This document shows positions 10,778-34,614 of a stretch of 64,000 nucleotides of DNA, piece by piece. The DNA comes from a virus. The translations under genes were made by a program, and so were the position numbers. Where the stretch lies: IMG/VR virus record IMGVR_UViG_3300030333_002512, positions 1 through 64,000 of that record. The stretch is one strand, 5' to 3'. The notes below the pieces were generated by a model. It saw only the letters and a program-made list of their open reading frames with translations. It was not told the DNA's origin and did no database searches. Positions within the stretch are counted from its first letter, which is position 1; each line of letters opens with the position of its first letter.

Positions 10778-12025
10778 TTAATCACTCCTGTAGTTTCTTG
10801 CAAAGTTGTGTATGTCATCCCAACTTACCTCAGCCGCAGTTGCGGTATCTGTTGGGATTCCTTCTGGAAGTTCAAAAGCAACTTCCTTAGCCTTGCGAAT
10901 CTCATTGTCCTTCTCGGATAGGGACTTCCTTAGTTCTGCGAACTCCTTCTTGAGAGCAGAAACATCGTTGCGAGCATCATACTCTGCTCTTTCTGCTTCT
11001 GATTTCTTGAGGGCTAGTTCTTCCTCTAGGCGATTTGCGAAGGTCTTCTGAAGTTCATCAATAGCCCTCTTCTCCAACTGCTCTGCCTTGAACTGCTCAT
11101 ATGCCTTCTCGACATTCTCAGCAGACAGATTTAGTGTTGGGAAATCAGATGCCTCTAATCCCTTGTTCACATTTCCTAGAGCAGCAGGTGCAGAAGTTGG
11201 CTTACCGCCACTTACTACTTCCTCACCAGCCTCGAACTCTCTTGTTTCATCCTCATCAAGAGCCTTTGCTTCTGAATCCTCATCCACAGACTCGTCATCG
11301 TCAGATAGTTCAAGGTCTTCTGCCCCGCCCTCATCTTCCATGTCCAAGTCCATGTCTTCATCTTCAGAATCGGTGTCCATATACTCCGCTTCCTTTCTTA
11401 CGTCATCTTCCTTGCCGATGCCGTTGATTTGACTTACCAAATCATTCAACTCGCCAAGTGCTTTTTCCAGTTTTTCACTCATTTCTTTTTCCTCCATTTT
11501 TAAAATGTCGAATTTTGCTTCCGGGTTAATCCCTTTTTCACAGATGGTTACCTCATGTAGTTCTAACTTGTCTATTTCGTTATATTGTCCAAATTCAGAA
11601 TTGTTCTTTTGCTTCTTTGAAATTGCCTGTCCACCGATGCTGAAAGACCGAAGCGTTCCTTTTCTAATACCTCTTGAGATTTCCTTAGCCTTCTCGATGT
11701 CATCGCGCATCTTGATTACTACATAGAATCCAACGTCATCCACTTCTGTTTTGTGTAGATTTCCGTTTTTATCTCGGTATTTTTCTATTACCTCCCCGAC
11801 TTGAACATTTGAATGATTTGACATTACATTCCGGAACTTCTTTTCTTCCATGTATTTGACTACTGCTTCCTTAAGTGCTGCTAGTGTGATTAGGTCATTC
11901 TGCTTGTCCACGATTTCGATAGATGCATAACCACCAATGACTAGATTATCAGACTTTAGAATCTGAAAGTTACCGTTTTGTTCCTCCTGTATATGCTGTG
12001 TCTTTTGCAATAACACTTCTCTCAC
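10778..12025 (-). CDS. Prohead protease fused to scaffold (XkdF-like), with C-terminal W-motif
   Basis: The 415-aa product has two parts. Residues 1-185 form a prohead-type serine protease: GYASIEIVDKQND, a candidate catalytic His in MSNHSNVQVG, and a candidate Ser in LRSFSIGG followed by ELHEVTICEKGINPEA. This matches XkdF-like and U35-like maturation proteases. Residues about 190-395 are very acidic, then helical coiled coil (LEEELALKKSEAERAEYD), as in fused scaffolds. The protein has a single tryptophan, in EVSWDDIHNFARNYRSD at the very end. That motif recurs in many neighbouring proteins. The start of the capsid gene is two bases away. Expected to direct assembly and then digest itself. 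Confidence 0.75.
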   Translation of the reverse strand: MREVLLQKTQHIQEEQNGNFQILKSDNLVIGGYASIEIVDKQNDLITLAALKEAVVKYMEEKKFRNVMSNHSNVQVGEVIEKYRDKNGNLHKTEVDDVGFYVVIKMRDDIEKAKEISRGIRKGTLRSFSIGGQAISKKQKNNSEFGQYNEIDKLELHEVTICEKGINPEAKFDILKMEEKEMSEKLEKALGELNDLVSQINGIGKEDDVRKEAEYMDTDSEDEDMDLDMEDEGGAEDLELSDDDESVDEDSEAKALDEDETREFEAGEEVVSGGKPTSAPAALGNVNKGLEASDFPTLNLSAENVEKAYEQFKAEQLEKRAIDELQKTFANRLEEELALKKSEAERAEYDARNDVSALKKEFAELRKSLSEKDNEIRKAKEVAFELPEGIPTDTATAAEVSWDDIHNFARNYRSD

Positions 12026-12037
12026 CTTTTTTTCTTA

Positions 12038-14653: not shown

Positions 14654-14654
14654 C

Positions 14655-15236: not shown

Positions 15237-15244
15237 AATATCAC

Positions 15245-15517
15245 CTATTGTTGTGGTTGTTGTGGTTGTTGATTAAGGCCACCTGTGCTAGTGCCTTGTT
15301 CTTGATGCATTTGTATTGCCTGTTGCTCTTCTGCAATTGCTTGTTCCAATGTTGAACCACCCTTTATGAAATCAGCAAGTCCTTGATACAGATTTTCGGG
15401 GGCTAAACCTTGTGCTTGAGTAAATTGTTGCTCTAGAGCATCTAATCCATATCTTGCAACAATGGCCTCCAATAGCACTTGTCTTCCTTGATTTTTTAGA
15501 ACGTTTTCCCATGTCAT
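15245..15517 (-). CDS. Small W-motif protein with Q-rich tail
   Basis: A 90-aa protein starting MTWENVLKNQGRQ, one of the recurrent N-terminal tryptophan motifs of this operon; it is the only Trp in the protein. A helical body (AIVARYGLDALEQQFTQAQG, GLADFIKGGSTLEQAIAEEQQ) follows, and the tail is glutamine/proline repeats. No enzymatic feature is visible. The tag plus short helical body suggests a small virion or assembly component whose N-terminus docks on a common partner. Confidence 0.55.
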   Translation of the reverse strand: MTWENVLKNQGRQVLLEAIVARYGLDALEQQFTQAQGLAPENLYQGLADFIKGGSTLEQAIAEEQQAIQMHQEQGTSTGGLNQQPQQPQQ

Positions 15518-15521
15518 AATA

Positions 15522-15719
15522 TCACGCTAGTATTCTCTTCAACTTCTCGATTGCAGATGACGCTTCTTGGAATAACCTGTCTGCTTCTCCACTCTTATCA
15601 GAAGGAACCTCATGTTCCAATTCCTGTAGTTGCATGACCATTGTTTCTAGAGCAGAAGCAACATCGCTCTCGCCCCTTCTGTGTATTCCGTAAATCTTTA
15701 CTGTATCTTCCCAACTCAT
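15522..15719 (-). CDS. Small W-motif protein, helical
   Basis: A 65-aa protein starting MSWEDTVKIYGIHRRG; its only Trp is residue 3. The rest is one or two amphipathic helices (VASALETMVMQLQELEHE; ADRLFQEASSAIEKLKRI). The start overlaps the stop of the preceding gene by the ATGA arrangement, so translation is coupled. No family recognised. Part of a tight run of four tagged small genes (15245-16379). Confidence 0.55.
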   Translation of the reverse strand: MSWEDTVKIYGIHRRGESDVASALETMVMQLQELEHEVPSDKSGEADRLFQEASSAIEKLKRILA

Positions 15720-15940
15720 TGCATATCCCCCACAATCTTGTGAATGTCATCCCACTTCATATCTCCAACCATTGCACTTGCATCCATGCTTTTGTTGATG
15801 CTAGGTGTTGGAGTTTCTACTACGACATATCCCGATTTCATCAGCAAGTTATCTTGGTGATACACGGTTTGCTCTAATGCCTTCACCTTATCCACTAGGG
15901 TCTTTAGAAGAGAAACCATCTCGTCTTTTTCTTCGCTCAT
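15716..15940 (-). CDS. Small coiled-coil protein with C-terminal W-motif
   Basis: A 74-aa protein starting MSEEKDEMVSLLKTLVDKV, a heptad-like helix. A short strand segment (GYVVVETPTPSINK) follows, and it ends MKWDDIHKIVGDMQ. The WDDIH core at the C-terminus is the same as in the C-terminus of the protease-scaffold (WDDIHNF). It is the only Trp in the protein. It shares ATGA overlaps with both neighbours. This may be an accessory scaffold or scaffold competitor; that is inference. Confidence 0.55.
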   Translation of the reverse strand: MSEEKDEMVSLLKTLVDKVKALEQTVYHQDNLLMKSGYVVVETPTPSINKSMDASAMVGDMKWDDIHKIVGDMQ

Positions 15941-16038
15941 GGTGTCGCCTCATCCTTTCCGTCTTTGTCATGCTTTATGATAATTTTGAAATCTTTCTTT
16001 AGTGCTTCCTTCAAACTCTCTTTCCAATTCAATGTCAT
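15937..16038 (-). CDS. Micro-protein with W-motif, 33 aa
   Basis: A 33-codon gene (MTLNWKESLKEALKKDF, then a basic-acidic tail KHDKDGKDEATP) fits exactly between two neighbours, with ATGA overlaps at both ends. The tryptophan motif WKESLKEAL is nearly the entire folded part. The exact overlaps make it a real gene rather than a chance frame. It may be little more than the docking tag itself, possibly a competitive regulator of the tag-binding partner; that role is speculative. Confidence 0.55.
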   Translation of the reverse strand: MTLNWKESLKEALKKDFKIIIKHDKDGKDEATP

Positions 16039-16379
16039 TCTTTTTCCACTCCTGTTTCTAAATCGCCCTTTTTCTTTGGATAAACCATTCCTCTTAATTG
16101 GCGATAAAGTGTTTCATAGTCCTTGCGAAGTTCAGCCGCAGCAGTTACCAATGATAGGTTTCTCTCATCAAACCCATCAAACTTCTTCTGTAGGTTTTTA
16201 TCTGATTTAACCAAATCTAGTTTTTTCATCTCCTTTATGAGATTGGTCAATTTAGTCATATCTTGTCCCATGTATTCTGTAGGTTGAGATGATTGGAGTA
16301 GTTTCTTGATTCGCTTCTTCTGCTTTGGTTTCACTTTAGAGAGTAAATCAGTTTCTTTGAGAATGTCTTGCCAACCCAT
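16035..16379 (-). CDS. W-motif helical protein
   Basis: A 114-aa protein starting MGWQDILKETDLLSKVKPKQ; the single Trp is residue 3. The body is helical and basic (KQKKRIKKLLQSS; DLVKSDKNLQKKFDGF; ELRKDYETLYRQLRGM). It starts nine bases after the 631-aa gene and overlaps the 33-aa gene. No family is recognised. Basic helices could contact DNA inside the head, if the tag indeed targets proteins there. Confidence 0.55.
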   Translation of the reverse strand: MGWQDILKETDLLSKVKPKQKKRIKKLLQSSQPTEYMGQDMTKLTNLIKEMKKLDLVKSDKNLQKKFDGFDERNLSLVTAAAELRKDYETLYRQLRGMVYPKKKGDLETGVEKE

Positions 16380-16388
16380 CTTACTCCC

Positions 16389-18284
16389 TCATGTGTCGTG
16401 TATCATTTCGTTCACAAGCCTAGTGGTTAATTTAAGTTGGTGCTTGAGTGCGTAAATCTTCTCTTCTGTTTCTCTCTTTCTGTATTTGTATTCATCCGGA
16501 TTATTTCTCTTCAACCTTTCAAGCATCTCTTCGTTGTTCTTTATGGTCTGTTTGATGTTAGGCATCTGAGTATTTAGCAATCTACTTAGATATCGCAACA
16601 ACTTGTCTTTCTGTGCTTGAGAGGTAGGCTCTTTGATTTCATTCATCTCAGACACTTTAGGTTTCAATGAATCAATTGTTCGATAGATGGCTGCAATTTC
16701 TTTTTCTCTAGCCTCGATTGTTTTCTTATTCTTACTTCGACTTAGCCTAGACTTAAGTTTCTCGATGTCATCTACTAGGCTATCCATGATTTCTTGCTTA
16801 TCAGTTCCCTTGGGGAATTTCTTCCCGCCAATTGTTATCTTCTTGGGTTCTTGCTCTTCGGGTTTGTAGTTATCCCAAGCAGCAATTAGTCTTGGGAATT
16901 TACTTGTTCCTTCTGTCACATCAATGGCATTGATGTCGAAGGTATCGAATTCTTCAGAACGAACGGTCTTGTCTCTCTTTCTATTGAAACTCCTAGTTCC
17001 GACCTTTCTTAGTTTTGTGACAACTTCTAGATTCTTCTTCTTGAGTTTATCAGAATTACCTGTGAGTTTGTTTACCGTCAGAAGAAACTCAAGAACTCTA
17101 AGAAGGCGATTTATTTCTCCTGTGTCCTGAGTTCTGTCTTTTTGTGTGAACCTTTGTTCTTCGTATCCTTCCATTGAATACTCTTCTTTCAAACGGTTAT
17201 AGAATTGATTTAATTTGGCAGAAATGCGATACACTCCGAATAACACATTATCCGCATAGTCCTCAGTGAATAGGAAGTGGAAGTCCTTTCCTTCCCCATC
17301 GAACATTATTTTTTCCATCTTCTCTACTGTGGAATCTACGTCTAAGGAGAAATACCCTTTCATTTTTTGTCGAATGGGCTTTCTTTCTGAAACATCAGTT
17401 CTACCAAGCCCCTCTCTCTCAAAGACTTCAAGCATCAAACTCTTACTTGTTTGGTCAGAATAATATCTGTATGCAGACCAATCCTTTTCATCTTCATCCC
17501 ATTTCGCTTGGGGTTCTACGAATAAAGCCTTGAATGATTTTGGTATTGATTTTCCATTATAGAGGAAATCTTGTATTTTCGACACGTTCTTTCTATTGAA
17601 AAATCCTGCCTGTCTTAGAGATTTAATGTGCTTCTGCGCAGATGGGTCGCCACCACCTGTCTTCCCAACAGTCGTCAATAGTTTCTTCAAGTCGGAAACA
17701 AGCCCTGTTGTTTTTGTTGCAGCAATTCTATTAGCAGAAAGTAATTTTTCTAATACGCCATAGTTTTTCTTGTCGGGCAAGTCTTCAGCAATAATTTCTA
17801 TCACTGTTTCAGCGCGTTGGTCTAATTCCACTCGTTGCTTCATCTTAATTTCAACATTGAAGAGTCTAGCCATAACTTCCTTGAACTCTTTCATACCTCG
17901 TATTTTCTCACCATAGTCTTCACTGGCATCTTCTTGTTCCTCTTGCTCACCCATCGCTGTTAGAGTTGAATACAAGTCCTCAACTTTCTTTGCATACTTC
18001 TCTACGTCAATCTGAAATTGTTCAACTGCTGCTTGTCCCTCTAACTGCTTACCCGAAAATATTGGTTCTCGGAAAACATTTGGTAATGAGACACCTTGCA
18101 CTATTTCCATAAAGGCTTGTAAGGCCTCATCTGCTTTCACAAGGCCTTCTTCCGTTACACCCTTCTCCTTTCTAGAATACCTGTCTAATAATTCGTAGAC
18201 ATCTGCATGTATATCTCCACCAATAGGAGGGGCTTCAGGTTCTTCCGCCTCCTCCTCCTTCCGAAGAATATCCACGAACGTCAT
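16389..18284 (-). CDS. Large charged helical protein with tag-like N-terminus, unknown
   Basis: The 631-aa protein starts MTFVDILRKEEEAEEPE, which matches the recurrent motif except that Phe replaces Trp. It is highly charged and mostly helical, with long heptad stretches toward the C-terminus (SLVDDIEKLKSRLSRSKNKK; KYRKRETEEKIYALKHQLKL). No catalytic motif or membrane segment is seen. It is one of four large unknown proteins in the late operon and is likely an internal virion or scaffold-associated component. The function is not known. Confidence 0.6.
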   Translation of the reverse strand: MTFVDILRKEEEAEEPEAPPIGGDIHADVYELLDRYSRKEKGVTEEGLVKADEALQAFMEIVQGVSLPNVFREPIFSGKQLEGQAAVEQFQIDVEKYAKKVEDLYSTLTAMGEQEEQEDASEDYGEKIRGMKEFKEVMARLFNVEIKMKQRVELDQRAETVIEIIAEDLPDKKNYGVLEKLLSANRIAATKTTGLVSDLKKLLTTVGKTGGGDPSAQKHIKSLRQAGFFNRKNVSKIQDFLYNGKSIPKSFKALFVEPQAKWDEDEKDWSAYRYYSDQTSKSLMLEVFEREGLGRTDVSERKPIRQKMKGYFSLDVDSTVEKMEKIMFDGEGKDFHFLFTEDYADNVLFGVYRISAKLNQFYNRLKEEYSMEGYEEQRFTQKDRTQDTGEINRLLRVLEFLLTVNKLTGNSDKLKKKNLEVVTKLRKVGTRSFNRKRDKTVRSEEFDTFDINAIDVTEGTSKFPRLIAAWDNYKPEEQEPKKITIGGKKFPKGTDKQEIMDSLVDDIEKLKSRLSRSKNKKTIEAREKEIAAIYRTIDSLKPKVSEMNEIKEPTSQAQKDKLLRYLSRLLNTQMPNIKQTIKNNEEMLERLKRNNPDEYKYRKRETEEKIYALKHQLKLTTRLVNEMIHDT

Positions 18285-18293
18285 CTAATCATC

Positions 18294-18521: not shown

Positions 18522-18625
18522 CTTTTCATCTCCTCCAAACTTTTTCTAATTCTTTCATCGGTTTCAGCATTTAATTTGTCAATCTCTTCTTTCCATTTTT
18601 TTACTATCTCAAGCAAATCTGTCAT
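18518..18625 (-). CDS. Micro-protein, 35 aa, helical with W-motif
   Basis: A 35-codon gene (MTDLLEIVKKWKEEIDKLN, ending RIRKSLEEMKR) begins inside the portal stop (ATGA) and ends inside the start of the next gene (again ATGA). One amphipathic helix holds WKEEIDKL, a looser version of the W-x3-I-x-K pattern. The coupling at both ends supports translation. Function unknown. Confidence 0.5.
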   Translation of the reverse strand: MTDLLEIVKKWKEEIDKLNAETDERIRKSLEEMKR

Positions 18626-20295
18626 GGAACTCTCCTTTCCGTTCTCTTATCTACGTTTTTATTTCCAACACCTTTGGGCATACCGCTAAATCTCTTGTCA
18701 GGGCCGACATTCATACTAGGCTTGTTTCTCTTTTTCCCACTGGGAGGTTCACCTTTCACTTCTTCCGGTTTTCCAGCAGCAGCCATGGATGGTTTAGTTC
18801 CGCTTTCCATCATTTGCCCTATGTGTTGTTGGTCAATGTTAGTTCCAGCGTATGGGTCTAATTCCACTTGTTCATCTTCGCCGCCTTGTTGTTCGGAACC
18901 ACCCGGAGGGGGGTCAGGTTTCTTGTATGAGAATCTGCCATCGTCATCCATGTCAACATCGAATCCTAGATTCTTTATTGCTGCTGCCACGTTTACCTCT
19001 ATCTCCCTCTTCCTGAGTTTCGCTATCTCATCTTCTTCTTCTGATGGTGGTAGTTTCAAAGTCCAATCAGTGATGCCGAACTCTTGAGTCATGAACGGGA
19101 AGACGTAATCATTCCAAATGGTCTGTGCCATTTCCACTGCTCTATTAGTGACAAGAACCTGCATACCCTCATTGTTCAACCCACCACTTGCAGAGTTATC
19201 TGCCATGAATATCTTGCTCACACCATAGAAGGCTGAGATTCTATCTCGCAGGTCATCTTTCACAGAGATGTAATCCATTTCCTTCAGGCTATCCATGAAC
19301 TTGACCCATTCAATGGAACCCTTTCCGTTATCGGATTCTATTCCCATTACAGGAATGAAGTGTGGGTCTTGTTCCATCTTCTCCTTGACACCACGCCAAA
19401 ATGACTTCATGGAATCCATGTTTCTAGTTTGAACTGCCAATAGTCCTCTTGGCATTCTTGCCTTTGTATATGATGAGTTCACATAATTCTCCATCGCTAT
19501 TAGTGTCGTGACATTGTTCCAAAGCGTGATGATGGGCGACAGACCATACAATCTAGATGGTGAGTATTTGCTGAAATGCAAAACTTCGCCCTTGATGAAA
19601 TACTGTTCTACTCCATTTACTCTATTGACATAATGAACTGGATGTAATTCCGATTTACATTCCTCACACAAATCCGTTGCAGTTTGAGATACCTTATCCC
19701 TGTGTTTCAAACAAGTGTATCCCTTGCTTCCTCTCTCTCCAATTTCATTCGAGTAGATGTGCATGGTAACAGGGTCACCCCTGTATATCTCCTTGATTCT
19801 ATGCATCTTGATGCTTGCATTGTTATCCATGAAGTATTCCTTGACGATAACGAGATATGCATCATCCATGATGTTCAAATCGTCTTCAAGTTCCTTGAGA
19901 ACATCAATGAAAAGTTGTTCGGACTTGTTTACATATCCCTCAAGGAATTTATGTGCATAGTCTAATTGCTTGGGGTCGGGTTTAATCAAATCAACAGAAC
20001 CACATTGCTTGCATTGCTTAACTGGTGAACTGTGTTCCTCCCCACAGGCTTTACACTTCGATACGAATTTCTCTTCCCAAGTATATCCGCGCCTAAATAT
20101 CTCTTGTTTCAATTGAGTTACGCACGTTCTCACAATTGTAGATTGTTGGGCAATGTGGTAGATAATCGGGGAAGTTAGTAGGTATGAGGTATCCTTCTCT
20201 TGAATCCCCGGATTGAATATTGTCCTATCTGCTGGTTTAGGAGTTGTTCTTCTGAACAAATTACCCACACTGAATCTGCGCTTTTCTTCTACCAT
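18622..20295 (-). CDS. Portal protein with zinc-ribbon insertions
   Basis: The 557-aa product has the portal pattern: an N-terminal start (FNPGIQEKDTSYLLTSPIIYHIAQ), a core helix-strand region (YFIKGEVLHFSKYSPSRLYGLSPI), the conserved ENYVNSSYTKARMPRGLL segment, and DRISAFYGVSKIFMADNSASGGLNNEG, typical of HK97/SPP1-like portals. The C-terminus is disordered and Pro/Gly-rich. Two cysteine clusters are unusual: C81/C84 with C95/C98, and C195/H198 with C210/C213, both looking like zinc ribbons. It forms the dodecameric DNA entry vertex. It lies downstream of terL, separated by a LAGLIDADG gene and a small tagged gene. Confidence 0.8.
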   Translation of the reverse strand: MVEEKRRFSVGNLFRRTTPKPADRTIFNPGIQEKDTSYLLTSPIIYHIAQQSTIVRTCVTQLKQEIFRRGYTWEEKFVSKCKACGEEHSSPVKQCKQCGSVDLIKPDPKQLDYAHKFLEGYVNKSEQLFIDVLKELEDDLNIMDDAYLVIVKEYFMDNNASIKMHRIKEIYRGDPVTMHIYSNEIGERGSKGYTCLKHRDKVSQTATDLCEECKSELHPVHYVNRVNGVEQYFIKGEVLHFSKYSPSRLYGLSPIITLWNNVTTLIAMENYVNSSYTKARMPRGLLAVQTRNMDSMKSFWRGVKEKMEQDPHFIPVMGIESDNGKGSIEWVKFMDSLKEMDYISVKDDLRDRISAFYGVSKIFMADNSASGGLNNEGMQVLVTNRAVEMAQTIWNDYVFPFMTQEFGITDWTLKLPPSEEEDEIAKLRKREIEVNVAAAIKNLGFDVDMDDDGRFSYKKPDPPPGGSEQQGGEDEQVELDPYAGTNIDQQHIGQMMESGTKPSMAAAGKPEEVKGEPPSGKKRNKPSMNVGPDKRFSGMPKGVGNKNVDKRTERRVP

Positions 20296-20297
20296 AC

Positions 20298-20453
20298 CTA
20301 TTTCTCCTTCACCTTATGCTCGAATAAATAGTCAGAGGCATCATCAACAGAACTCCAATCATCTTCAGACAAATCGTGTTCTTCGACAATTTCCTCTAGG
20401 TCATCTATTGCCTTGTCCACAGGCTTCTTCTTCAAAACATCTTGCCACTTCAT
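20298..20453 (-). CDS. Small acidic W-motif protein, 51 aa
   Basis: A 51-aa gene (MKWQDVLKKKPVDKAIDDLE, ending YLFEHKVKEK) begins with the recurrent tryptophan motif. It starts within the stop of the LAGLIDADG gene (ATGA) and ends two bases before the portal start. A second Trp occurs in SEDDWSSVDD. The rest is acidic and helical. The precise fit between two genes indicates it is real. Unknown role next to the portal. Confidence 0.55.
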   Translation of the reverse strand: MKWQDVLKKKPVDKAIDDLEEIVEEHDLSEDDWSSVDDASDYLFEHKVKEK

Positions 20454-21781: not shown

Positions 21782-21791
21782 TACTCCCACC

Positions 21792-23225: not shown

Positions 23226-23227
23226 GT

Positions 23228-23776
23228 TTACTCACTCATACCCTTTTTCAACGTGTCAACCCATTGAGGCACATTATACATCATTGTCTTCTGCAATTGC
23301 TCAACGAGTTTTGGATGCTGACTTGCTTGAATCAATTCCCTCTTCATCTGTTCTGGTAAATCTTCAGGGAGATTCTCTAAATCTACATCATTAAATCCCA
23401 CACTTCGATAATAGTCTGCGGCTTTCCTACTAGCAAAATTAATGAATAATTTCGCATTACCCTTTTCTTGTAGTAATTTCTCCACAAGTATTGGCATTAA
23501 ACCAACGCCCCTACCTTCAGGCCTTCTTGTATGTATTCCAGCACCCATTGCGAATTTACCTAATGGGGCAAATCCAATTACACCAATAGGTTTGTTTTCA
23601 GGATTGAAGGCCATGAACATTCTAGCGGGTTCTGTATACCAAAGAGAATCATAAGGTAGAAATGTTCCTCGGTCTGAACGCTTCTCAAATTGAGTATAAC
23701 CGTCTTCCCTGAAAGTTTCTACAACTTGATGTTCGGGCATTTCTTGAAAACGAATGTCAGCACTTGTATATGTCAT
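23228..23776 (-). CDS. GNAT-family N-acetyltransferase with C-terminal W-motif
   Basis: The 182-aa protein shows the GNAT fold. A strand pair (ARMFMAFNPENKPIGVIGFAP) leads to the acetyl-CoA loop RRPEGRGVG followed by the helix LMPILVEKLLQEKG, and FINFASRKAADYYRSVGFND is a standard motif B ending. The last 15 residues are VPQWVDTLKKGMSE, a copy of the tryptophan motif (WVDTLKK). A tagged acetyltransferase in the late operon could modify capsid, host or scaffold proteins after being drawn into the assembling head; this is inference. The GNAT assignment is firm. Confidence 0.75.
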   Translation of the reverse strand: MTYTSADIRFQEMPEHQVVETFREDGYTQFEKRSDRGTFLPYDSLWYTEPARMFMAFNPENKPIGVIGFAPLGKFAMGAGIHTRRPEGRGVGLMPILVEKLLQEKGNAKLFINFASRKAADYYRSVGFNDVDLENLPEDLPEQMKRELIQASQHPKLVEQLQKTMMYNVPQWVDTLKKGMSE

Positions 23777-23780
23777 CTAC

Positions 23781-26750: not shown

Positions 26751-28826
26751 TCAACCAACTCCCGTCAATTCTCTCAACCAATCTCTCGGTTGCGCGACAC
26801 CTTCCTTGTCAATAATGATTGGCTCCGATACTACCTCTGCCATCTTCTTCTTAGTGGCTTCAACTAACCCGTTTCTAATCTGTGGATAAACATCATTGAC
26901 AGCATCTTCGAATGCTTTCTCCAATTTACTCATTTCTTCAGGGGTTGGTGGAGTCCCTTCTTCCCATTGTCCGGTTTCATCGTTATAGACACGCTTGACT
27001 CTAGTAATTTTTCTAACTGCTTTGTTAATTTTATTACTTCCTAACATTTGTGCTTCAAGTCTATCCAAAACTCCAACTAGATAGTAAAAACTCAATTTGT
27101 TTGTGTCTTGACCTGCCTTCAATCTAACTCTAAAAGTGCCGCCCTGCTTCTGGTCAGCAGCAAATTGCTGTTTAAAATTCTCAATGGGATTATGGTCAAT
27201 GGCACTAAAGAGAAAAGATAGGAGTCTCTCTTCTGATTTGGATGAAGGAACTAGAATGGAATTATCTTGTTTGGAGGGTTTCATCTTCGATAATGCATCT
27301 TTAATCTGCTTAACTCTTTTCTCATCGTCTGGTTGTCCGGAGTCACCATACCTATGTTCACCGAATTTCATATTTCTAATACTACTTCTAGATGGAAGAG
27401 ATTCTTCGATAGATGGATATTGAATCTTCAGTTGTGGAACTTTACCCCATCCACCTACAGGGGGCTTTAGTAAGAAATCCCTCATTTCCACAGATATACC
27501 ACTAGGAATCAACGGGGTTTCTTTCTGCATTCTCTCATAAGCATCTTTAGTTTCTTGACTCTCCCCGCGCATAGCCAATTCAAATTTAGCAAAACCTCTA
27601 GCATCATCAGCCTTCACATATTTATTGAAAAGCCTCAATACAGATTCCTCACCCTCTCCCTTACTCAATTTACGATACACTGCATCTCTAGTGAGACTAC
27701 TTTTCGTTCTATTAGCCACAAAACCCGCACTAATATCGAGTTCTTTATGTTCAAATAAATATTCTAAAGCGGGTAATACTTTCCCCGTTCCTTTTTCTGA
27801 ACCAGTTTGAACACCAAATAGTATCTTGGCCGTTTCCTTTGCAGCACCCACACCTGAATCTCCTGTAGGTGAAAGAACAGGAATAAACGCACCTCGGTCA
27901 GCCCCACTAACTTTAGTTAGAACATGCTGCAAGTATCTCAAAGCGACATTATCATCTTGGAAAGACTCAGCCTTGATGTTCTTCATGCCACCTGCTATCT
28001 TCGTCTTAGAATACTTTGGCTGATTGAAAACCTTGGCAAAGAAATTCCTCACAATTGGTTTGTCGGGGTCACCACCTGAGAGTTTCTTTCCTTGTAGAAT
28101 TGTAATCCAATCAGGAAGGGAAACCAAAACTCCGTCTGCTTGTTCCTCTTGAGTCCATGCTTTAGGTATAATTCCAAAATTGAAATCATCAGGAAGAAGG
28201 AGTTTGACATCCTTCGTGTCGTATCCCATCAACTTAGACTTGTTAGCCTTCGCTGATTTCAAGGCCTTCACGAATCGGCTGTTGTTCTTCTCCCAAAGTC
28301 GTAGTTGCTTTATCTTAGTTTTCTTTGCCTCTTGACTGCCTTCGTTCAAGTAATCCACAAGTGGTTGAAAATTTCCTCCTAAGAATTCCTCATACAACTT
28401 CAGAACTTTCTTTGGAATTTTATCCTTGTAATTAGGATTCCTTTTTCCACCTGACATTTTTGCCGGAGCGTAGTCATCCAACTTCTCCTTCAATTTCTCA
28501 GCGTTCTCCATCATTCTCTTTGGGATTGGAACGTCTGTTGCAGTAGCAGCAAATGTAACATCCTCATATTGCTCCTTCATCTTCAGCCATTTATTTTCAG
28601 GAATGGTCTTGTCGTTTGCTTGCTCGTTTATTTGATTGAATAATCTGATTATCTTATTCAAAGAACTACGAACCCCACCTAGATTCAACTCTTCATTCTT
28701 AATGCTCTCAATAATCGAATTAACGTTACCACCATCAAGGGCCATTATGATTTTGAAGCCTACTCCACCACCTTTGATTTTCTGAGTATCAAAGGATGCC
28801 TTGTGAAGTGTGGCTTGCCATGACAT
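26751..28826 (-). CDS. Large W-motif protein (691 aa), unknown
   Basis: The protein begins MSWQATLHKASFDTQKIKGG, with the tag core WQATLHK, and ends PRDWLRELTGVG, a second W-x3-L at the C-terminus. Between them are basic helical segments (KKTKIKQLRLWEKNNSRFVK; KALKSAKANKSKLMG), a Gly/Ser-rich middle and a C-terminal helical region. No catalytic motif is recognised. The start overlaps the stop of the next gene upstream (28826). Likely an abundant structural or internal protein carrying the common tag. Confidence 0.6.
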   Translation of the reverse strand: MSWQATLHKASFDTQKIKGGGVGFKIIMALDGGNVNSIIESIKNEELNLGGVRSSLNKIIRLFNQINEQANDKTIPENKWLKMKEQYEDVTFAATATDVPIPKRMMENAEKLKEKLDDYAPAKMSGGKRNPNYKDKIPKKVLKLYEEFLGGNFQPLVDYLNEGSQEAKKTKIKQLRLWEKNNSRFVKALKSAKANKSKLMGYDTKDVKLLLPDDFNFGIIPKAWTQEEQADGVLVSLPDWITILQGKKLSGGDPDKPIVRNFFAKVFNQPKYSKTKIAGGMKNIKAESFQDDNVALRYLQHVLTKVSGADRGAFIPVLSPTGDSGVGAAKETAKILFGVQTGSEKGTGKVLPALEYLFEHKELDISAGFVANRTKSSLTRDAVYRKLSKGEGEESVLRLFNKYVKADDARGFAKFELAMRGESQETKDAYERMQKETPLIPSGISVEMRDFLLKPPVGGWGKVPQLKIQYPSIEESLPSRSSIRNMKFGEHRYGDSGQPDDEKRVKQIKDALSKMKPSKQDNSILVPSSKSEERLLSFLFSAIDHNPIENFKQQFAADQKQGGTFRVRLKAGQDTNKLSFYYLVGVLDRLEAQMLGSNKINKAVRKITRVKRVYNDETGQWEEGTPPTPEEMSKLEKAFEDAVNDVYPQIRNGLVEATKKKMAEVVSEPIIIDKEGVAQPRDWLRELTGVG

Positions 28827-29374
28827 TACTCTCTATTCCCCTTTTGATTTTGCTTGGCTTTCCATTCTCCGTAAGTTCCTGATTCAGTTCCACTAAGCCA
28901 AATTGGTGCATTATCGGGAATATTGATGTTATTGTCTAAACAATATTGAACAGTTATCTTCCAAGGTATCATTGAGCCTCTTGGTCTTTCATAGGTTCGG
29001 GTCTTGCCACCATACTTTGACTTGTATCTATTCTGCTTGTAATGTGTCAACTTGCCTGTGAGGAATACGCCTAATCCATACTTGGTTAATTCCGGCTTGA
29101 CTATCTTCCCATTAATCCTCACTCTTCCCAAGGAACTCATCTCATCATTCTCATCATAATCAAAGGTCTTGTGGTCTTTCTGCCCATATCCTTTACCTGC
29201 GTAGTATCTCATATATTGATTGTCGAATTCTTCACCGGGTAATGGAGAAGCATCGTCAATGAAAACCATTGGGTTTTCCCTAGTTCCCCTTGCCTTTACT
29301 GAATCCGCATATGGTTCTTGCAAATCTTGCCATTGAATATACGGCATCTTCAAAATTTCTTGCCATGTTGTCAT
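28826..29374 (-). CDS. W-motif protein (182 aa), unknown
   Basis: It starts MTTWQEILKMPYIQWQDLQE, with the tag WQEILK and a second tryptophan repeat (WQDLQ) eleven residues later. The body has a basic Lys/Tyr/Arg-rich region (LTHYKQNRYKSKYGGKTRTY) and a possible globular end (IPWKITVQYCLDNNINIPDN). No family is recognised. It overlaps the following gene by four bases. The basic patch suggests nucleic acid contact. Confidence 0.55.
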   Translation of the reverse strand: MTTWQEILKMPYIQWQDLQEPYADSVKARGTRENPMVFIDDASPLPGEEFDNQYMRYYAGKGYGQKDHKTFDYDENDEMSSLGRVRINGKIVKPELTKYGLGVFLTGKLTHYKQNRYKSKYGGKTRTYERPRGSMIPWKITVQYCLDNNINIPDNAPIWLSGTESGTYGEWKAKQNQKGNRE

Positions 29375-29700
29375 TGTTTCACTTCCTTCTGTTCATCTCT
29401 CGTTTGTTTCATAGCCATGCTAGTTTTCCCATTCAAGGTTCTTAGCATGGTGTAAATGTTTTTTCTCATCTCACCCAATTCAGAAATGAAGGTTCTCTTA
29501 TCTGATTCCATCCTATCCCACCACTTCTCATACTGTTCCTCAGAAAGAAGTGACTTGACATTCTCAGAATTATTCTGATGTAGCATCTCCAAACTTTCTC
29601 CGGCAGCATCTAATGCCTGTATAGTAGCATACAGACCATCCAATTGCAAAGGCTCCTTCAAGTCTTGTTTGACTTTCTTGACAACATCTTCCCAACTCAT
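29371..29700 (-). CDS. W-motif helical protein (109 aa)
   Basis: It begins MSWEDVVKKVKQDLKEPL. The body is helical (LYATIQALDAAGESLEMLHQ; YEKWWDRMESDKRTFISELG) and ends basic and polar. ATGA overlaps link it to both neighbours. There is no known domain. It is one of a run of eight adjacent tagged genes (26751-33092, interrupted only by the CCHH zinc gene at 31153). Confidence 0.55.
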   Translation of the reverse strand: MSWEDVVKKVKQDLKEPLQLDGLYATIQALDAAGESLEMLHQNNSENVKSLLSEEQYEKWWDRMESDKRTFISELGEMRKNIYTMLRTLNGKTSMAMKQTRDEQKEVKQ

Positions 29701-29951
29701 TCATTTGCCTCCTTTTGTTCTCGTAGAGTCCTAGTTGCCCTATCTATAAATGACTGTTGACCGCGAGTCCTTCCTTCCGGCAAATTATGCCAAGGCATGG
29801 ATTCTCCTTTTTCATACTGTGCGCAACCACCTTTTGGATTAATCGAGACATACTCCAAGGTGCATTTTCTATCTTCATTATGAGCGCAATCCGTTGCCTC
29901 ACATAGACCAACTTTGCATTCTGCAATTTTCAAAACCCTATTCCAAGTCAT
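29697..29951 (-). CDS. W-motif protein with DUF1540-like cysteine knot
   Basis: The 84-aa product starts MTWNRVLKIAECKVGLCEAT. It continues with cysteines spaced as C-x4-C-x4-C-x7-C-x12-C. This resembles DUF1540-type metal-binding modules, which read C-x(n)-C-yN-x(n)-C and a final C-x(2)-F/Y. The C-terminus is charged. The fold is small and probably zinc stabilised. It is joined by ATGA overlaps with neighbours. Role unknown; the DUF1540 likeness is from the cysteine pattern only. Confidence 0.5.
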   Translation of the reverse strand: MTWNRVLKIAECKVGLCEATDCAHNEDRKCTLEYVSINPKGGCAQYEKGESMPWHNLPEGRTRGQQSFIDRATRTLREQKEANE

Positions 29952-30193
29952 ATTTCTTCCCCCGCCGCATTGTAAAATTGATAATCATCAGGAGGCTTTT
30001 CTCTCTTCCCCAAACTATCTGAACACCATTGACATAAATCAGATGGCTTAGTAGATTTACCCGGCATCCTTGCGAAGATAGTATCCTCCGATACTGGTCG
30101 AATACAATTATTCACACACAGTAGTTCTCCTTCCTTGTTATATCTGTCAGGAGTCCACCTGATTAAATCCTTGATTATGTCTTTCCAACTCAT
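29948..30193 (-). CDS. W-motif zinc-finger protein (81 aa)
   Basis: It starts MSWKDIIKDLIRWTPDRYNK. Four cysteines (LLCVNNCIRP and DLCQWCSDSL) form a probable zinc site with C-x3-C and C-x2-C. The short tail is polar. It overlaps both neighbours by four bases. No family recognised. The combination of tag and zinc finger in several neighbouring proteins suggests they share one assembly pathway. Confidence 0.55.
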   Translation of the reverse strand: MSWKDIIKDLIRWTPDRYNKEGELLCVNNCIRPVSEDTIFARMPGKSTKPSDLCQWCSDSLGKREKPPDDYQFYNAAGEEI

Positions 30194-30585
30194 CTATACT
30201 TCCTCCTAAATCTTCTTTGTCCTTCTTCATGTGGGTCGCGTCTGCCGAAGTCATCTGAGCGCATTGGCCTTCCTCCTTCCGGTGTGAAGAATTGCCTGTT
30301 CTGGTCACAACGCTTCTTGTAGTTCCTTATGCTCAAAACAATGTGATACCAAACCTTGTCTCTATTTGACTCTTGAAGTAGGTCTAATAGATAACTGTGA
30401 AACTGTTCGCAATCCATTGCCTTAACTTCATCGAGTGGTGCAAGCCCATCTCGATTCATGAATTGGGGTTCATATTCACAATACATCTTCATGGCCACCT
30501 TGCAACAATCATCCCTGCCTTCCTCACGCTCATCATAGTCTTTGATTTTAGCATATTGAACTTTTAGAACATCTTCCCAACTCAT
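30190..30585 (-). CDS. W-motif protein with basic C-terminus (131 aa)
   Basis: It begins MSWEDVLKVQYAKIKDYDER, the clearest form of the tag. A helical Cys-containing middle (DDCCKVAMKMYCEYEPQFM) follows, then a helical section (EQFHSYLLDLLQESNRDKVW) and a very basic end (PHEEGQRRFRRKYR). The basic tail could bind DNA. It sits four bases upstream of a tagged gene and overlaps the next by four. No known family. Confidence 0.55.
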   Translation of the reverse strand: MSWEDVLKVQYAKIKDYDEREEGRDDCCKVAMKMYCEYEPQFMNRDGLAPLDEVKAMDCEQFHSYLLDLLQESNRDKVWYHIVLSIRNYKKRCDQNRQFFTPEGGRPMRSDDFGRRDPHEEGQRRFRRKYR

Positions 30586-30589
30586 TGCA

Positions 30590-31156
30590 TCATCTCCAAT
30601 CTATCTCTGTGTCAAAACCAAAACTATTTTTTAGATTCATGCCTTCTAATTTCTTTGCCGCATTATCTAACACTTCATTTATTTTCTTTGCCTTTGAAGT
30701 AGTTCTGAGGAATATCGTAGAAGGCCAAGGTGGGTTTTCTTTTGTTGGTGGATTCCCGTCTTTATCAGGGCCATCATGTGTTAATATTTCCATTTTAACA
30801 TACAAAGGGTTAGCGTTAGGTCTTGGCAATATATCCAAATTTCTATACCAAAGATTTGTTCTTTGATTCCACTTTGGGGAAACCATTGTCACTTTATCTC
30901 CATAAGCCGCTTTCAACTCATCAACAATTTCATCCCACACTTCTTCTGTTTCTTCTTTATGAGGAGGTTCTGTTCCGTATCTACTTTTAGGGTCTAACAT
31001 ACCTTCGGGGTTAAAGTGGTCACGATGACGAAACACATCCTTTCTTTTCCCGTATTCATCAAAACGAACATTACCTGCTTCATCATGAGAACTAAATATA
31101 GGGTCTGAAGTATCACCCCAACGCTCATCTTTTTTCAGTATGGCTTTCCAACTCAT
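30590..31156 (-). CDS. W-motif protein (188 aa), unknown
   Basis: I place the start at the ATG at 31156, giving MSWKAILKKDERWGDTSDPI; this start lies within the stop of the upstream gene (ATGA) and puts the tag at the N-terminus like its neighbours. A longer frame exists but lacks support. The middle is hydrophilic with His and Asp (FRHRDHFNPEGMLDPKSRYG). The C-terminal half is alpha-beta (EIVDELKAAYGDKVTMVSPK). No family recognised. Confidence 0.6.
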   Translation of the reverse strand: MSWKAILKKDERWGDTSDPIFSSHDEAGNVRFDEYGKRKDVFRHRDHFNPEGMLDPKSRYGTEPPHKEETEEVWDEIVDELKAAYGDKVTMVSPKWNQRTNLWYRNLDILPRPNANPLYVKMEILTHDGPDKDGNPPTKENPPWPSTIFLRTTSKAKKINEVLDNAAKKLEGMNLKNSFGFDTEIDWR

Positions 31157-31812
31157 TGCATCTTCTCCTCCATCTTCTTCCTGACATCCAACCATACATC
31201 AGGATGATTCTGCGCTAGAACCTCCTTGACGATTTGCATTTGGTGAACTATAATCGTGTCCTGTCTCTTGTGAACTAACTTGCCCTTGAACTCCATGACA
31301 TACTTCAGACTCTCCCTAATCTCCTTGGCCATCTTAGTTAGCGAGTCGATATACTTGGGATTACCAACTTCCTCCATGTCGAACAACTCGTCTATCTTCC
31401 CCTCAAGCCTTCTGATGTTCCTAGTTAGAGTCTCGACCTCATCCAATTCCCTAGCGGCAATCATCTGTGCGGCAGACTTCTGCACTAGAGGCTGAACGTG
31501 ATTTCGCATATGACGAACGACTTGCTCGACAGAACAATCTTCCATCTTCGCTGCCATCTCCGGAGTCATATCCCCATTGTATATGTTTACTTCAATATCC
31601 CCGCGCATCTCAGATGTGCATATGTTGCAGCGTGGATTCGATGAGTCCTCATAGTGACCCATGTGATTTCGCTGATGCTTTGATGCAGTGCCACTAGGCC
31701 AGTCCATATTCTTGTCAAGTTGGTCAGCAGTCATTTTGAGTCCTTCCAAATCTGCTTCCATATCTTCCCTATCAGGGTGATTGCAAAATGCACATCTCTT
31801 TCTAATAATCAT
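31153..31812 (-). CDS. Duplicated CCHH zinc protein, possible small terminase or head protein
   Basis: The 219-aa protein has two similar zinc modules. One is CAFCNHPDRED with HQRNHMGHY (residues about 7-55); the other is CNICTSEMRGD with HMRNHVQP (about 62-107). A long coiled-coil helix follows, and the end is PDVWLDVRKKMEEKMQ, a C-terminal version of the tryptophan motif. C-x2-C...H-x3-H modules of this kind occur in packaging and head proteins. The small terminase subunit is a candidate, since none is otherwise obvious, but this is only inference. The start is four bases into the stop of the 427-aa gene. Confidence 0.5.
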   Translation of the reverse strand: MIIRKRCAFCNHPDREDMEADLEGLKMTADQLDKNMDWPSGTASKHQRNHMGHYEDSSNPRCNICTSEMRGDIEVNIYNGDMTPEMAAKMEDCSVEQVVRHMRNHVQPLVQKSAAQMIAARELDEVETLTRNIRRLEGKIDELFDMEEVGNPKYIDSLTKMAKEIRESLKYVMEFKGKLVHKRQDTIIVHQMQIVKEVLAQNHPDVWLDVRKKMEEKMQ

Positions 31813-33092
31813 TCTACTCTACCTGTTTTTGGATTATATGCGATTCTGCTACGTTCAGCCTCATCTAGTCGGTCACTTCTTATTTTATCTCGCCAATTTT
31901 GCGGTGTCCCTTCTCTTTCCTTCTTCTTTCTAGCCAACCTTTCTCTTGCTTCCGCCGTTCTTTTTCTGTTCTCAATTGCAGACTGCGCTTCTTCGGGTTT
32001 GTAGTTGTCTCCCCATAGGAATCTTCCCACCTTTCCTCTCATTCCCTTTTCAGAACCAACTTTGCTTTGTAGAGTATCAGACCATTTTCCTTCTACTTCT
32101 TTGTATTTATCAGCAGCAGATTTACCCCTTATTTTCTTATTTGCTAACCACTTGTCGGCCCCCATAGCACCAGAAACAGCCTTCGAAGGAAGTTTCTTCG
32201 CTCCTCGATACATATCTCTAAGTGACACTTCTTCCGGAATCCCACGCTTTCCGCCTACTAATGGCACTTTGCGTTTTTTCTGCCACACTTCGGGGGCTTC
32301 AGCATCTTTCATCCTTTGTTTCTTTGCCTCTTTCGCTTTCTTTCGCGCAAGATATCCTTCCGGTAGATTCTCCTTCCAATTTGTGGAAGCCCTATCATCC
32401 TCATCAATGTCATCGGGCATTGGATTTACGAAAGCCTGTGACCCCGGTTCCGGCATGTCGTATTCTGATATGTTGCCAGCCGCTAGTTGCGCTTGCCAAT
32501 ATGCTGCTTGTTCATCTGCTGTATTATCAGCATGGGATGATTGTTCATATTTGGGTTGACCTTTTGAATTTAGAACTATTTGTCCAGTATCCACATTTCG
32601 AACTAAACCTTGGGCATCTCTTTCTTCATTGTTCAGGAGTCTTACTTTTTTTGGGTTCCCCTTGTCATCTTTTTCACCAGCAAGAAAACCATAGTTGGTG
32701 GAACTAGGAGATTGAAACACCGAACCTGTTCCAGCATGTAGTTTGTTTTCCCATTGGTCTTGTGTATAACGCTCTGGTTGCAAACCTTGTTGTCCACCAG
32801 TGAAAGCCGTCTGTAATTGTTGAGTCCAACCTGTAAAGCCTTCTTCCTCCTCACTATCAGACTTGCCAACTTCCTCCTCATCCTTCTCTTCTTCCTTTTC
32901 GGGGTCTACTGCAACAGTGTCCTGTTGCTCTCCCGGCTTGTCTTGAACGATTTTACCGGGAGGGTCAGGTGCATCCATTCCCATTCCCGGTAGGGGTGGC
33001 ATTCCTCCCATTGGTGGTGGAGCCATTGGTGGAGGAGGAGGTGGTGGTGGAGTAGGTTGCTTCAGCATATCCTCCCAAAGAACGTCACTCAT
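31809..33092 (-). CDS. Disordered protein with seven W-x3-L/I motifs: candidate tag hub
   Basis: I use the ATG at 33092 (MSDVLWEDMLKQPTPPPP), which follows GGAGGTGA at the right distance. The 427-aa product is Pro/Gly/Met-rich, then acidic, then basic, and is probably disordered. Seven W-x3-[L/I/M] motifs are spread along it: WEDML, WTQQL, WENKL, WQAQL, WKENL, WSDTL and WRDKI. The same core is the tag at one end of about 20 other proteins. The multivalency suggests a scaffold or bridge that binds the same pocket many times. It overlaps the zinc-protein start by four bases. Confidence 0.65.
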   Translation of the reverse strand: MSDVLWEDMLKQPTPPPPPPPPMAPPPMGGMPPLPGMGMDAPDPPGKIVQDKPGEQQDTVAVDPEKEEEKDEEEVGKSDSEEEEGFTGWTQQLQTAFTGGQQGLQPERYTQDQWENKLHAGTGSVFQSPSSTNYGFLAGEKDDKGNPKKVRLLNNEERDAQGLVRNVDTGQIVLNSKGQPKYEQSSHADNTADEQAAYWQAQLAAGNISEYDMPEPGSQAFVNPMPDDIDEDDRASTNWKENLPEGYLARKKAKEAKKQRMKDAEAPEVWQKKRKVPLVGGKRGIPEEVSLRDMYRGAKKLPSKAVSGAMGADKWLANKKIRGKSAADKYKEVEGKWSDTLQSKVGSEKGMRGKVGRFLWGDNYKPEEAQSAIENRKRTAEARERLARKKKEREGTPQNWRDKIRSDRLDEAERSRIAYNPKTGRVE

Positions 33093-33174
33093 CTGTCTCA
33101 CCTCCATAGCAATACGGACAAAATGTCACACCTGCATTCATGACGGAGATTTTCATGTTGCAACACTTCAGCAT
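33085..33174 (-). CDS. Micro zinc-ribbon protein, 29 aa
   Basis: A 29-codon gene (MLKCCNMKISVMNAG, then VTFCPYCYGGETDE) starts within the stop of the 387-aa gene (ATGCTGA) and ends just inside the start of the tag-hub gene. Two cysteine pairs (CC and CPYC) could bind one zinc. Both junctions are typical of coupled genes here. It is too short for a confident call of function. It is the only coding candidate in this junction. Confidence 0.4.
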   Translation of the reverse strand: MLKCCNMKISVMNAGVTFCPYCYGGETDE

Positions 33175-34331
33175 TTCACAATCATCCTCCAATCTGTTTC
33201 CACATCTAGGGATTTCTTCTCGGTATCGTCATTCTTAGGCTGCTCGGTTTCTTCGGGTTTGGGTTTCGCTTCAGGCTTCGGCTTCTTTCCTACTCGTAGG
33301 GCATCCTTACCTGCCGTAGTCCAATGCGCATTGTCACCAAGTAGTATCTTGGCCATGTTGTTGCACTGCCTCCAACTAATCTTTACCCATATCTCCTCAA
33401 TGTCTTGCTTCATTCCCCTAATACCTAGAATGGCCTTGACTGCATCGGCATCCCTGTTGCTCAAATCCATGGGGTTAGCCATCAAAGCGGTTCGACAAGA
33501 CTTCGCAGGGAAGGTCTTCTGTGGTTTTGACTTGGCCTGATTTACGAATGTCTGAACTATTGCCCTCACAGGTTTGATTGTCAACATCAACTTCGCAACT
33601 TGTGGGGTTCCCAATTGTCTTCTCGTTAAATCCAGTGGATTCTCCTTCGTGATTTCCAAAACCATCTCGTCAAAGTTCTTGAGTGCCTGTTTGACAACTT
33701 GATGTAGGCTCAAACCAGTAAATTTGTCATTCTCAGTCTTGTTCCCATACAGTGCTTGCCACATAGGAGGTTTTGCCTGTCCCATATTCTCGTTATACCA
33801 AGAATCCGGAACCGCAGGTCTGTCTCTACCTTTCACTTTCTGAGCATCCTCATACTCATCTGTTCGATAATGACCATAGATTTCTTTGGCTTCTGTTGTT
33901 CTTCCTTTCTCATCAAAATAAAGAGGGTTATCAAACCTAATATTAGCCGGATTCAACCTATGCTCGCTACCAGAATAGGTATCCATCATCTTATCCAACT
34001 GTTGTAGGAAGGATTCTTGCTCCGGGGAGAATTCCTTAGCGTTGAATATCTTCTCTAGTTCCTTGAAAATTTCAACTCCGCCTTTATTGGGCATCTTTGG
34101 GCCGCTTCCTCTAAGCCTTCCAGAGATTCCTTGATTTTTTATCAGTTGAAAGAGGGAAATGCCAGTTACGGAGCCAATAGTTTCGCCTTCCAAACCACTC
34201 GCTTCCTTCTCCCACGCATTATACATCTCGCGCAAGGACTTCTTGTCTAATGTGCCTGTGAATTCCTGTCCACCTGCTTTGAAAGGAACTCTATCTTCGT
34301 CTTTATCTATGTCCTTTCTTTTTCTTGGCAC
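33168..34331 (-). CDS. Large basic protein with C-terminal W-motif (387 aa), unknown
   Basis: The start is GTG at 34331 after GGGGGAGA (MPRKRKDIDKDEDR). The body is basic and mixed helical (TIKPVRAIVQTFVNQAKSKP; DADAVKAILGIRGMKQDIEE). The C-terminal 40 residues are a disordered Lys/Pro/Glu linker ending VETDWRMIVKC, so the tag WRMIVK is the last thing in the protein, one residue from the end. A flexible linker before a terminal motif is what an exposed docking peptide needs. No known family. Confidence 0.6.
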   Translation of the reverse strand: MPRKRKDIDKDEDRVPFKAGGQEFTGTLDKKSLREMYNAWEKEASGLEGETIGSVTGISLFQLIKNQGISGRLRGSGPKMPNKGGVEIFKELEKIFNAKEFSPEQESFLQQLDKMMDTYSGSEHRLNPANIRFDNPLYFDEKGRTTEAKEIYGHYRTDEYEDAQKVKGRDRPAVPDSWYNENMGQAKPPMWQALYGNKTENDKFTGLSLHQVVKQALKNFDEMVLEITKENPLDLTRRQLGTPQVAKLMLTIKPVRAIVQTFVNQAKSKPQKTFPAKSCRTALMANPMDLSNRDADAVKAILGIRGMKQDIEEIWVKISWRQCNNMAKILLGDNAHWTTAGKDALRVGKKPKPEAKPKPEETEQPKNDDTEKKSLDVETDWRMIVKC

Positions 34332-34614
34332 GTTTTCTCCCCCTTATCGCTTCGTTGTTAAACAGGGCCGATGTTCCCCCGCTTGCAGTAGTGACTGCGC
34401 CTCCCATCTTTAGTTGTTCTTGCCATTTTGGGCTATCTGCCTTTTGTTCTTGATTGCCCCATTTGTTATTTGCATGTTCTATACCCTTATCTGCTGCATA
34501 TTGGGCCGCACTTCCAATTACCTTCTTTCCAGTTGGGGTTTTGGCGGCGGCTAATGCTCCCCTACCGACTGCGGCGACTACAGGGGCTACTTTTTCCACT
34601 GATTCATCTGTCAT
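34303..34614 (-). CDS. Small Ala/Gly-rich protein with internal W-motif, first gene of the late operon
   Basis: The 103-aa protein starts MTDESVEKVAPVVAAVGRGA and is helical, with the tag in the middle (SPKWQEQLKMGGAVTTASG) and a very basic end (RGRKRAKKKKGHR). The Ala/Val-rich N-terminal helix may insert in or lie on a membrane or capsid. It is the first gene of the long late operon and overlaps the next gene by 29 bases. A basic tail suggests DNA contact. Confidence 0.55.
   Translation of the reverse strand: MTDESVEKVAPVVAAVGRGALAAAKTPTGKKVIGSAAQYAADKGIEHANNKWGNQEQKADSPKWQEQLKMGGAVTTASGGTSALFNNEAIRGRKRAKKKKGHR

Follow-up and report, generated by a model that had tools for sequence, protein, structure and literature searches.

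This report concerns a short tryptophan-centred tag that recurs at the termini of otherwise dissimilar late proteins in IMGVR_UViG_3300030333_002512, a virus record of 77,125 bases from IMG/VR, of which we analysed bases 1–64000 (the window). The late operon occupies the minus strand from approximately 38 kb down to position 1, and the plus strand carries the early genes. The virus is probably a magrovirus-like tailed virus with an archaeal host, as judged from the relationships of its portal and major capsid protein (MCP) and from the literature on magroviruses (PMC10160649, PMC8651126): both proteins are close to those of Druskaviridae, and an ATP-dependent DNA ligase and a clamp loader are encoded as well. 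Relatives treated in the same two papers point to marine group II (MGII; Poseidoniales) archaea as the probable host.

Scores in bits given below refer to a position weight matrix (PWM) of the N-terminal form of the tag, derived from the 363 tagged families with a single representative per family and scored on 11,408 sequence windows. From higher to lower coordinates on the minus strand, N-terminal copies (N-tags) open the proteins starting with MSDVLWEDMLK (31809..33092, 427 residues), MSWKAILK (30590..31156, 18.8 bits), MSWEDVLK (30190..30585, 21.4 bits), MSWKDIIK (29948..30193, 22.3 bits), MTWNRVLK (29697..29951, 8.6 bits; a DUF1540-like cysteine protein, Pfam DUF1540 E = 9.6e-6), MSWEDVVK (29371..29700, 19.6 bits), MTTWQEILK (28826..29374, 19.0 bits), MSWQATLHK (26751..28826; with 691 residues the largest tagged protein, N-tagged in 19 of 27 homologues), MKWQDVLK (20298..20453, 17.0 bits; family 5/5 tagged), MTFVDILRK (16389..18284), MGWQDILK (16035..16379; a lineage-wide family of 109–114 residues, 54 of whose 72 members match the strict N-tag regular expression), MTLNWKESLK (15937..16038; a 33-residue protein whose gene overlaps the preceding one by 4 nt), MSWEDTVK (15522..15719, included through the motif count in the window) and MTWENVLK (15245..15517, 18.2 bits). 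All N-terminal copies listed in a preliminary description of this DNA are present at the starts given there, but that list was incomplete, as it missed MSDVLWEDMLK, whose ATG at 33092 lies behind a GGAGG site and whose orthologue in the related locus L002 begins with MSDVLWEDMIK. The copy described as LNWKESLK does carry the motif; it is preceded by ATG-ACA, so the true start is MTLNWKESLK (MTLNWKLSLK in L002). C-terminal copies, likewise on the minus strand, close a protein of 387 residues (33168..34331, DWRMIVKC), one of 219 residues (31153..31812, VWLDVRKK) and a GNAT-like protein with weak GNAT Pfam matches (23228..23776, WVDTLKK), and a protein of 74 residues (15716..15940) ends in KWDDIHKIVGDMQ, a motif of the scaffold type discussed below.

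Counted with the regular expression W...[LIVMRHQ][KRHN] over the 51 late-strand open reading frames (ORFs) of the window, the motif occurs 13 times within the first eight residues (mean of 2000 shuffles, 0.40) and six times within the last 25 residues (mean 1.17), and in both cases none of the 2000 shuffles was as high, which rules out a chance origin of the tag and bears out the earlier expectation of a frequency above chance. The ten internal copies (mean 9.27; 908 of 2000 shuffles as high) are at the level of chance; judged by position class, the terminal copies are thus real and the internal ones are not, and the internal copy WQEQLK at 34303, to which the preliminary description had drawn attention, has to be given up. 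No copies occur in the plus-strand early region of the window. By the PWM, eight N-termini of the window reach at least 17 bits, and nothing else among the scored sequences exceeds 8.6 bits. The C-terminal copies are individually weak by this measure (WRMIVK 5.7, WVDTLK 4.9, SWDDIHN −0.2 bits) and are supported by conservation across homologues rather than by their score: the 387-residue protein has the C-terminal tag in 24 of 30 family members by regular expression, and VWLD[VI][RK] is found by inspection in all 45 homologues of the 219-residue protein.

A scan with the large terminase subunit (TerL) yielded 80 related IMG/VR loci (81 records with the window included), in which the plus strand is the late strand. 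Of the 1494 late-strand genes in these loci, 437 carry an N-tag, where 5.35 would be expected, and the antisense ORFs of the same loci hold no N-tags; the presence of the motif in homologous operons, on which the earlier proposal hung, is thereby established. Because shuffling is blind to relatedness among the loci, family counts are the better measure: the 777 distinct tagged proteins fall, after removal of the tag, into 363 BLAST families (248 of them singletons), a number that is an upper limit, as BLAST misses remote homology. The spread of the tag over so many families otherwise lacking it in common marks it as a portable module. In a MAFFT alignment of 115 family representatives, W3 is the sole invariant column, and M1 and K8 are conserved at 90% or above. 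The N-terminal consensus is M-[S/T/N]-W-x-[D/E/N]-[I/V]-[L/I/V]-K, with C-terminal forms being weaker; the logo reads M-[S61 T13 N11]-W-[F/E/Q/K]-[D44 E16 N13]-[I58 V19]-[L64 I20 V13]-K95 and breaks off abruptly at this last K. One family replaces W with F throughout (MTF[MV]DILRK in 18 of 18 members, including the window's MTFVDILRK), so the copy first described as FVDILRK is a genuine Phe variant. Codon use and codon entropy within the tag are near background. W is preceded by S, T, D or N in 84% of the families, and the capping-box pattern [STDN]-W-x-[DEQ] is present in 50% of them (background product 0.048), a composition suggesting that a short amphipathic helix may begin with the tag, S/T/N/D serving as its N-cap and W, I/V and L lining the same side.

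In families of at most three members, 197 of 396 proteins are tagged. Never N-tagged in the 81 records are TerL, the portal, the ligase and two proteins of 446 and 989 residues; the former of these (20450–21790, between the portal and TerL genes) has a C-terminal HNH/LAGLIDADG-like nuclease region (phrog_5046, E = 2.7e-5). Pfam gave only about 12 matches for 225 representatives of tagged families, scattered over, for example, PAP2, DUF1540, a 2H-type domain and HsdM_N, and an anti-defence identity of the tagged proteins was abandoned after a PADLOC scan returned just three weak matches. Several tagged proteins appear, as judged from alignments, to have acquired the tag as an addition to proteins that exist elsewhere without it. 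One tagged basic family has untagged homologues in Celeribacter, Roseobacter and cyanobacterial phages that are ~55–70% identical, with the alignment beginning directly after the tag. In the GNAT-like orthologues adjoining TerL the tag is mostly C-terminal; L067 and L075 have it at the N-terminus instead, and their homology to the others starts from residue 13 or 15. A second tagged basic family has a domain in common with the cyanophage family T4-GC_119, annotated by depositors as 'structural protein' (S-P4, S-E7). Some chains bear an inter-domain tag or two tags (L006:11393-11815 and L065:622-1134, with SMDWFDTLK, and MTWFDSINK plus SLDWFEVVK) and look as if neighbouring tagged genes had been fused. 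In a 95.6-kb relative (L394–L398; G005, 82–96 kb) the number of N-tagged late genes is 27, and some of these form a tandem series with LKNIQIS after the tag that represents a gene-duplication array.

Within the late operon the tag keeps almost entirely to the head side, and it is restricted to one lineage of marine viruses. Upstream of the protease gene 241 of 906 genes are tagged, as opposed to none of 129 downstream (MCP and tail; Fisher p = 1e-16, with genes that are not independent of each other). On the early (plus) strand of two near-complete relatives none of 70 and none of 77 genes are tagged, in a third near-complete relative 27 late genes are tagged and a single match in the early region is probably spurious, and the tail region of one relative holds a single match of 71 residues (MWDIILK). 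A DNA pattern for MSW[KE]DILK was found in at least 120 stretches of IMG/VR, and among the matches listed most lie in multi-tag contigs with homologues of the lineage; ~257 Gb of prokaryote genomes gave eight scattered matches, none of them titled Poseidoniales or another euryarchaeon, which rules out a host-wide motif. Neither the HVTV-1, HGTV-1, vir519 and vir335 stretches (Druskaviridae and other archaeal viruses) nor, with the exception of a single match in a locus of the HCTV type that looks fortuitous, the examined loci of Druskaviridae and of a marine sister group have tags. The portal of this sister group is 49–58% identical to that of the tag lineage. In two sister genomes searched end to end the regular expression matched 1 of 120 and 2 of 106 proteins, and one of these, MSDWWYLLKKRK, might be real; a search for a different terminal tag in this group found no enriched terminal motif. 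The sister viruses (L305–L372) are compact, with 59 families in the loci compared, and have no accessory arsenal.

Two further observations, a likeness between the tag and the end of the scaffold and a predicted scaffold-only start, are new here, and the first of them had escaped the preliminary description. The gene at 10778..12025 (minus strand) encodes an S78-type prohead protease (Peptidase_S78, E = 6e-10, residues 29–182) fused to a scaffold. An AlphaFold2 (AF2) model comprises an S78-like domain, a coiled coil at residues 302–383 (helices 302–348 and 351–383) and an end helix at 402–413 that begins at W402 and has a mean predicted local distance difference test (pLDDT) value of ~85 over the block; the best fold-search match of the protease, assemblin of human cytomegalovirus (E = 0.034), was too weak to be used. 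The end helix carries SWDDIHNFARNY (residues 401–412). The WDDIHNF that had been described as a C-terminal copy is present in this protein, although 12 residues before its end and hence not terminal. The end motif, M-[SDE]-W-x-[DE]-[IV]-[HN] with small departures, occurs in all 62 distinct protease-scaffold homologues of the tag lineage and all 55 of the sister group, and in none of eight homologues from haloarchaeal viruses; W402 is invariant and M400 more than 90% conserved in an alignment of 61 sequences. The small coiled-coil neighbour, i.e. the 74-residue protein mentioned above, has the same type of ending in both virus groups. Upstream of Met182, at the junction of protease and scaffold, a Shine–Dalgarno-like site is found in 52 of 55 homologues of the tag lineage, compared with 106 of 578 other internal Met codons, and the site is kept even though the residues encoded there vary; in the window it includes GGAGG and reads aatggaggaaaaagaaatg (start 11482, minus strand). 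The conserved ribosome site predicts a scaffold-only product (10778..11482) from a nested gene in these archaeal-type tailed viruses. Beside the protease, in the head module, lies a gene for an ATP-dependent DNA ligase of 871 residues with long extra regions (12038–14653), and a second one, of 511 residues, is located in the early region (54830–56365); the former may belong to the virion or be linked to packaging. In the sister viruses a ligase-homologous protein reaches 1988 residues.

The N-tag and the scaffold motif have [S/D/T]-W-x-[D/E]-[I/V] in common. The reading that we favour, and consider probable, is that of a portable docking signal through which cargo proteins are brought to the prohead during its assembly; the tag would do so by imitating the docking helix of the scaffold, a common receptor and encapsidation being what we infer beyond the motif itself. 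The end helix of the scaffold (and, presumably, of its nested product), M-[S/D/E]-W-x-[D/E]-[I/V]-H-[N/K], would be the docking helix, and the cargo tag would imitate it or bind beside it, docking on the same prohead surface, that is the capsid protein, or on a close neighbour, the scaffold or the portal. The candidate receptor is the untagged MCP (9381..10775, minus strand; SU10_MCP E = 3e-10, phrog_24667 E = 3e-21), with the portal (18622..20295, minus strand; Phage_portal E = 7.5e-10, 0/81 tagged) as an alternative. A large and fast-changing set of small proteins would thereby be built into the head, and the head-borne proteins would probably be ejected into the host. A wider proposal, that this lineage has made the scaffold docking helix a general cargo code in which some eight codons at either end of any head-side operon gene lead to prohead loading, is offered tentatively, as we put its chances a little short of even. 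If true, each virus would deliver about 10–25 virion-borne, rapidly exchanged effectors, an arsenal far above that of T4 internal proteins, and for archaeal viruses this would be the first head-delivered protein system of such a kind. To the majority of genes in uncultured marine viruses no function can be assigned; with a tag that is legible in the sequence, hundreds of them could be classed together as predicted virion cargo, and attention would be drawn to proteins that may be injected into archaea abundant in the ocean. The tag also provides a well-defined case for testing how peptides that bind a scaffold turn into cargo signals. Our literature search on the motif strings found no paper containing the motif, nor did we find a capsid-targeting tag described in archaeal viruses.

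Several points weigh against this reading. The N-tag and the scaffold motif differ at position +4 (L/I/V versus H), and the scaffold copy scores −0.2 bits on the N-tag PWM, the 29th of the 11,408 windows, so the two are kindred but not demonstrably homologous. In the sister group the scaffold motif is present although tags are essentially absent, so that cargo loading cannot be deduced from this motif by itself. The AF2 model of the 691-residue protein shows the tag with low confidence (pLDDT < 50 at residues 3–26); as a whole the model is of low confidence, and it gave no fold match at E ≤ 0.001. T4-GC_119 is termed hypothetical in a passage of Sullivan et al. 2010 (PMC3037559), and we have dropped it as a proven virion protein. 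Finally, unlike in T4, where the prohead protease removes the signal at a site of the [L/I]-x-E type, no conserved cleavage-site consensus or enriched motif was found within 35 residues after the tag.

The head-side confinement of the tag would also suit an assembly-factor code, in which tagged proteins dock on a virus-encoded hub (the portal-terminase complex or the 989- or 446-residue protein) while the head is assembled or DNA is packaged, and do not themselves enter the virion. The two latter proteins are near-universal in the tag lineage (for the 446-residue one, 80 of 81 records, with the window among them), untagged and undetected in the sister group, as might be expected of a hub; we nevertheless regard this explanation as unlikely, since the tagging of about half of the 396 rare-family proteins fits variable cargo better and the kindred scaffold motif also occurs in viruses that lack these hub candidates. 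Even less probable, in our view, is an amphipathic helix that binds a membrane or a host factor and so places late proteins at a host membrane or protein. Its appeal lies in the composition of the tag (W, I/V, L, K), which suits an interfacial helix, and in the fact that the docking model has candidate receptors only (MCP, scaffold, portal). The single-residue preferences for W and K and the D/E at +2 speak for binding in the groove of a protein, however, the tag is missing from tail and early genes, and the scarcity of matches in prokaryote genomes (eight, versus at least 120 viral-contig stretches) means that the code is not common to the hosts.

Could the tagged proteins instead be ancient paralogues that have diverged beyond recognition save for their N-termini? 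Some of them are indeed tandem paralogues (the LKNIQIS series), and the BLAST family numbers, as said, are upper limits. The presence of GNAT-like, PAP2, DUF1540 and phage-wide basic families among the tagged proteins contradicts common descent for these families, outside homologues are untagged and align from just past the tag, and the tag switches terminus, all of which makes this scenario very improbable. Least credible of all is a signal acting in translation or at the RNA level: the tag does stand at start codons of an overlapping operon, but its near-background codon entropy and the existence of C-terminal copies contradict a leader function, and the same codon freedom and C-terminal copies rule out a translation or DNA-repeat signal.

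The docking-tag reading put forward in the preliminary description, with T4 as its analogy, is thus partly supported: the tag is above chance, portable, found at both termini, free in its codons, located on the head side and kindred to the scaffold end helix. The analogy with T4 holds for the design, a short N-terminal tag on non-homologous hypervariable proteins, and fails for the sequence; a T4-like cleavage-site consensus was not found after the tag. The T4 capsid-targeting sequence is a 10-residue signal with key positions at residues 4 and 7 (PMC9026906), and IPII and IPIII share MKTYQEFIAEA (read from NC_000866). T-even internal proteins are described as highly diverse defence proteins with the targeting sequence alone in common (PMC3012670), and the tagged proteins appear to resemble them in design: in both cases a very short N-terminal peptide is common to non-homologous variable proteins (here 777 late, head-side proteins in 363 families), and an aromatic residue is followed by hydrophobic ones at i+3/i+4 (Y4, F7 and I8 of MKTYQEFI in T4; W3, I6 and L7 here). 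Beyond this spacing the two show no sequence identity, and neither MKTYQEFIAEA nor a recognizable relative was found here; T4 has a handful of tags, whereas here there are at least ten per genome, at C-termini too; and our virus is an archaeal-type one from another lineage, in which encapsidation is a prediction.

Among the closest relatives, magroviruses and Druskaviridae (HVTV-1) share with the virus studied here the homology of portal and MCP, the ligase and replication genes, whereas relatives of the HVTV-1 type have neither N-tags nor the C-terminal scaffold motif. Herpesvirus scaffolds bind the capsid protein via their C-termini (PMC12474303). The protease-scaffold of the window has an N-terminal protease and a C-terminal coiled coil in one ORF, a conserved C-terminal helix and an internal start predicted from sequence, as in nested protease-scaffold genes of the UL26/UL26.5 or C/Nu3 type; it is distant from the herpesvirus proteins in sequence, and capsid-protein binding is established there, whereas here the end helix is known from sequence and the AF2 model. 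We know of no cargo proteins that imitate the scaffold tail in herpesviruses. The cargo-loading peptides of encapsulins, likewise short and terminal, are proposed to direct unrelated cargo to a defined groove inside a shell of the HK97 fold. Their motif is different, and encapsulins are cellular compartments. The tag described here is a candidate short tag for protein loading into HK97-fold shells.

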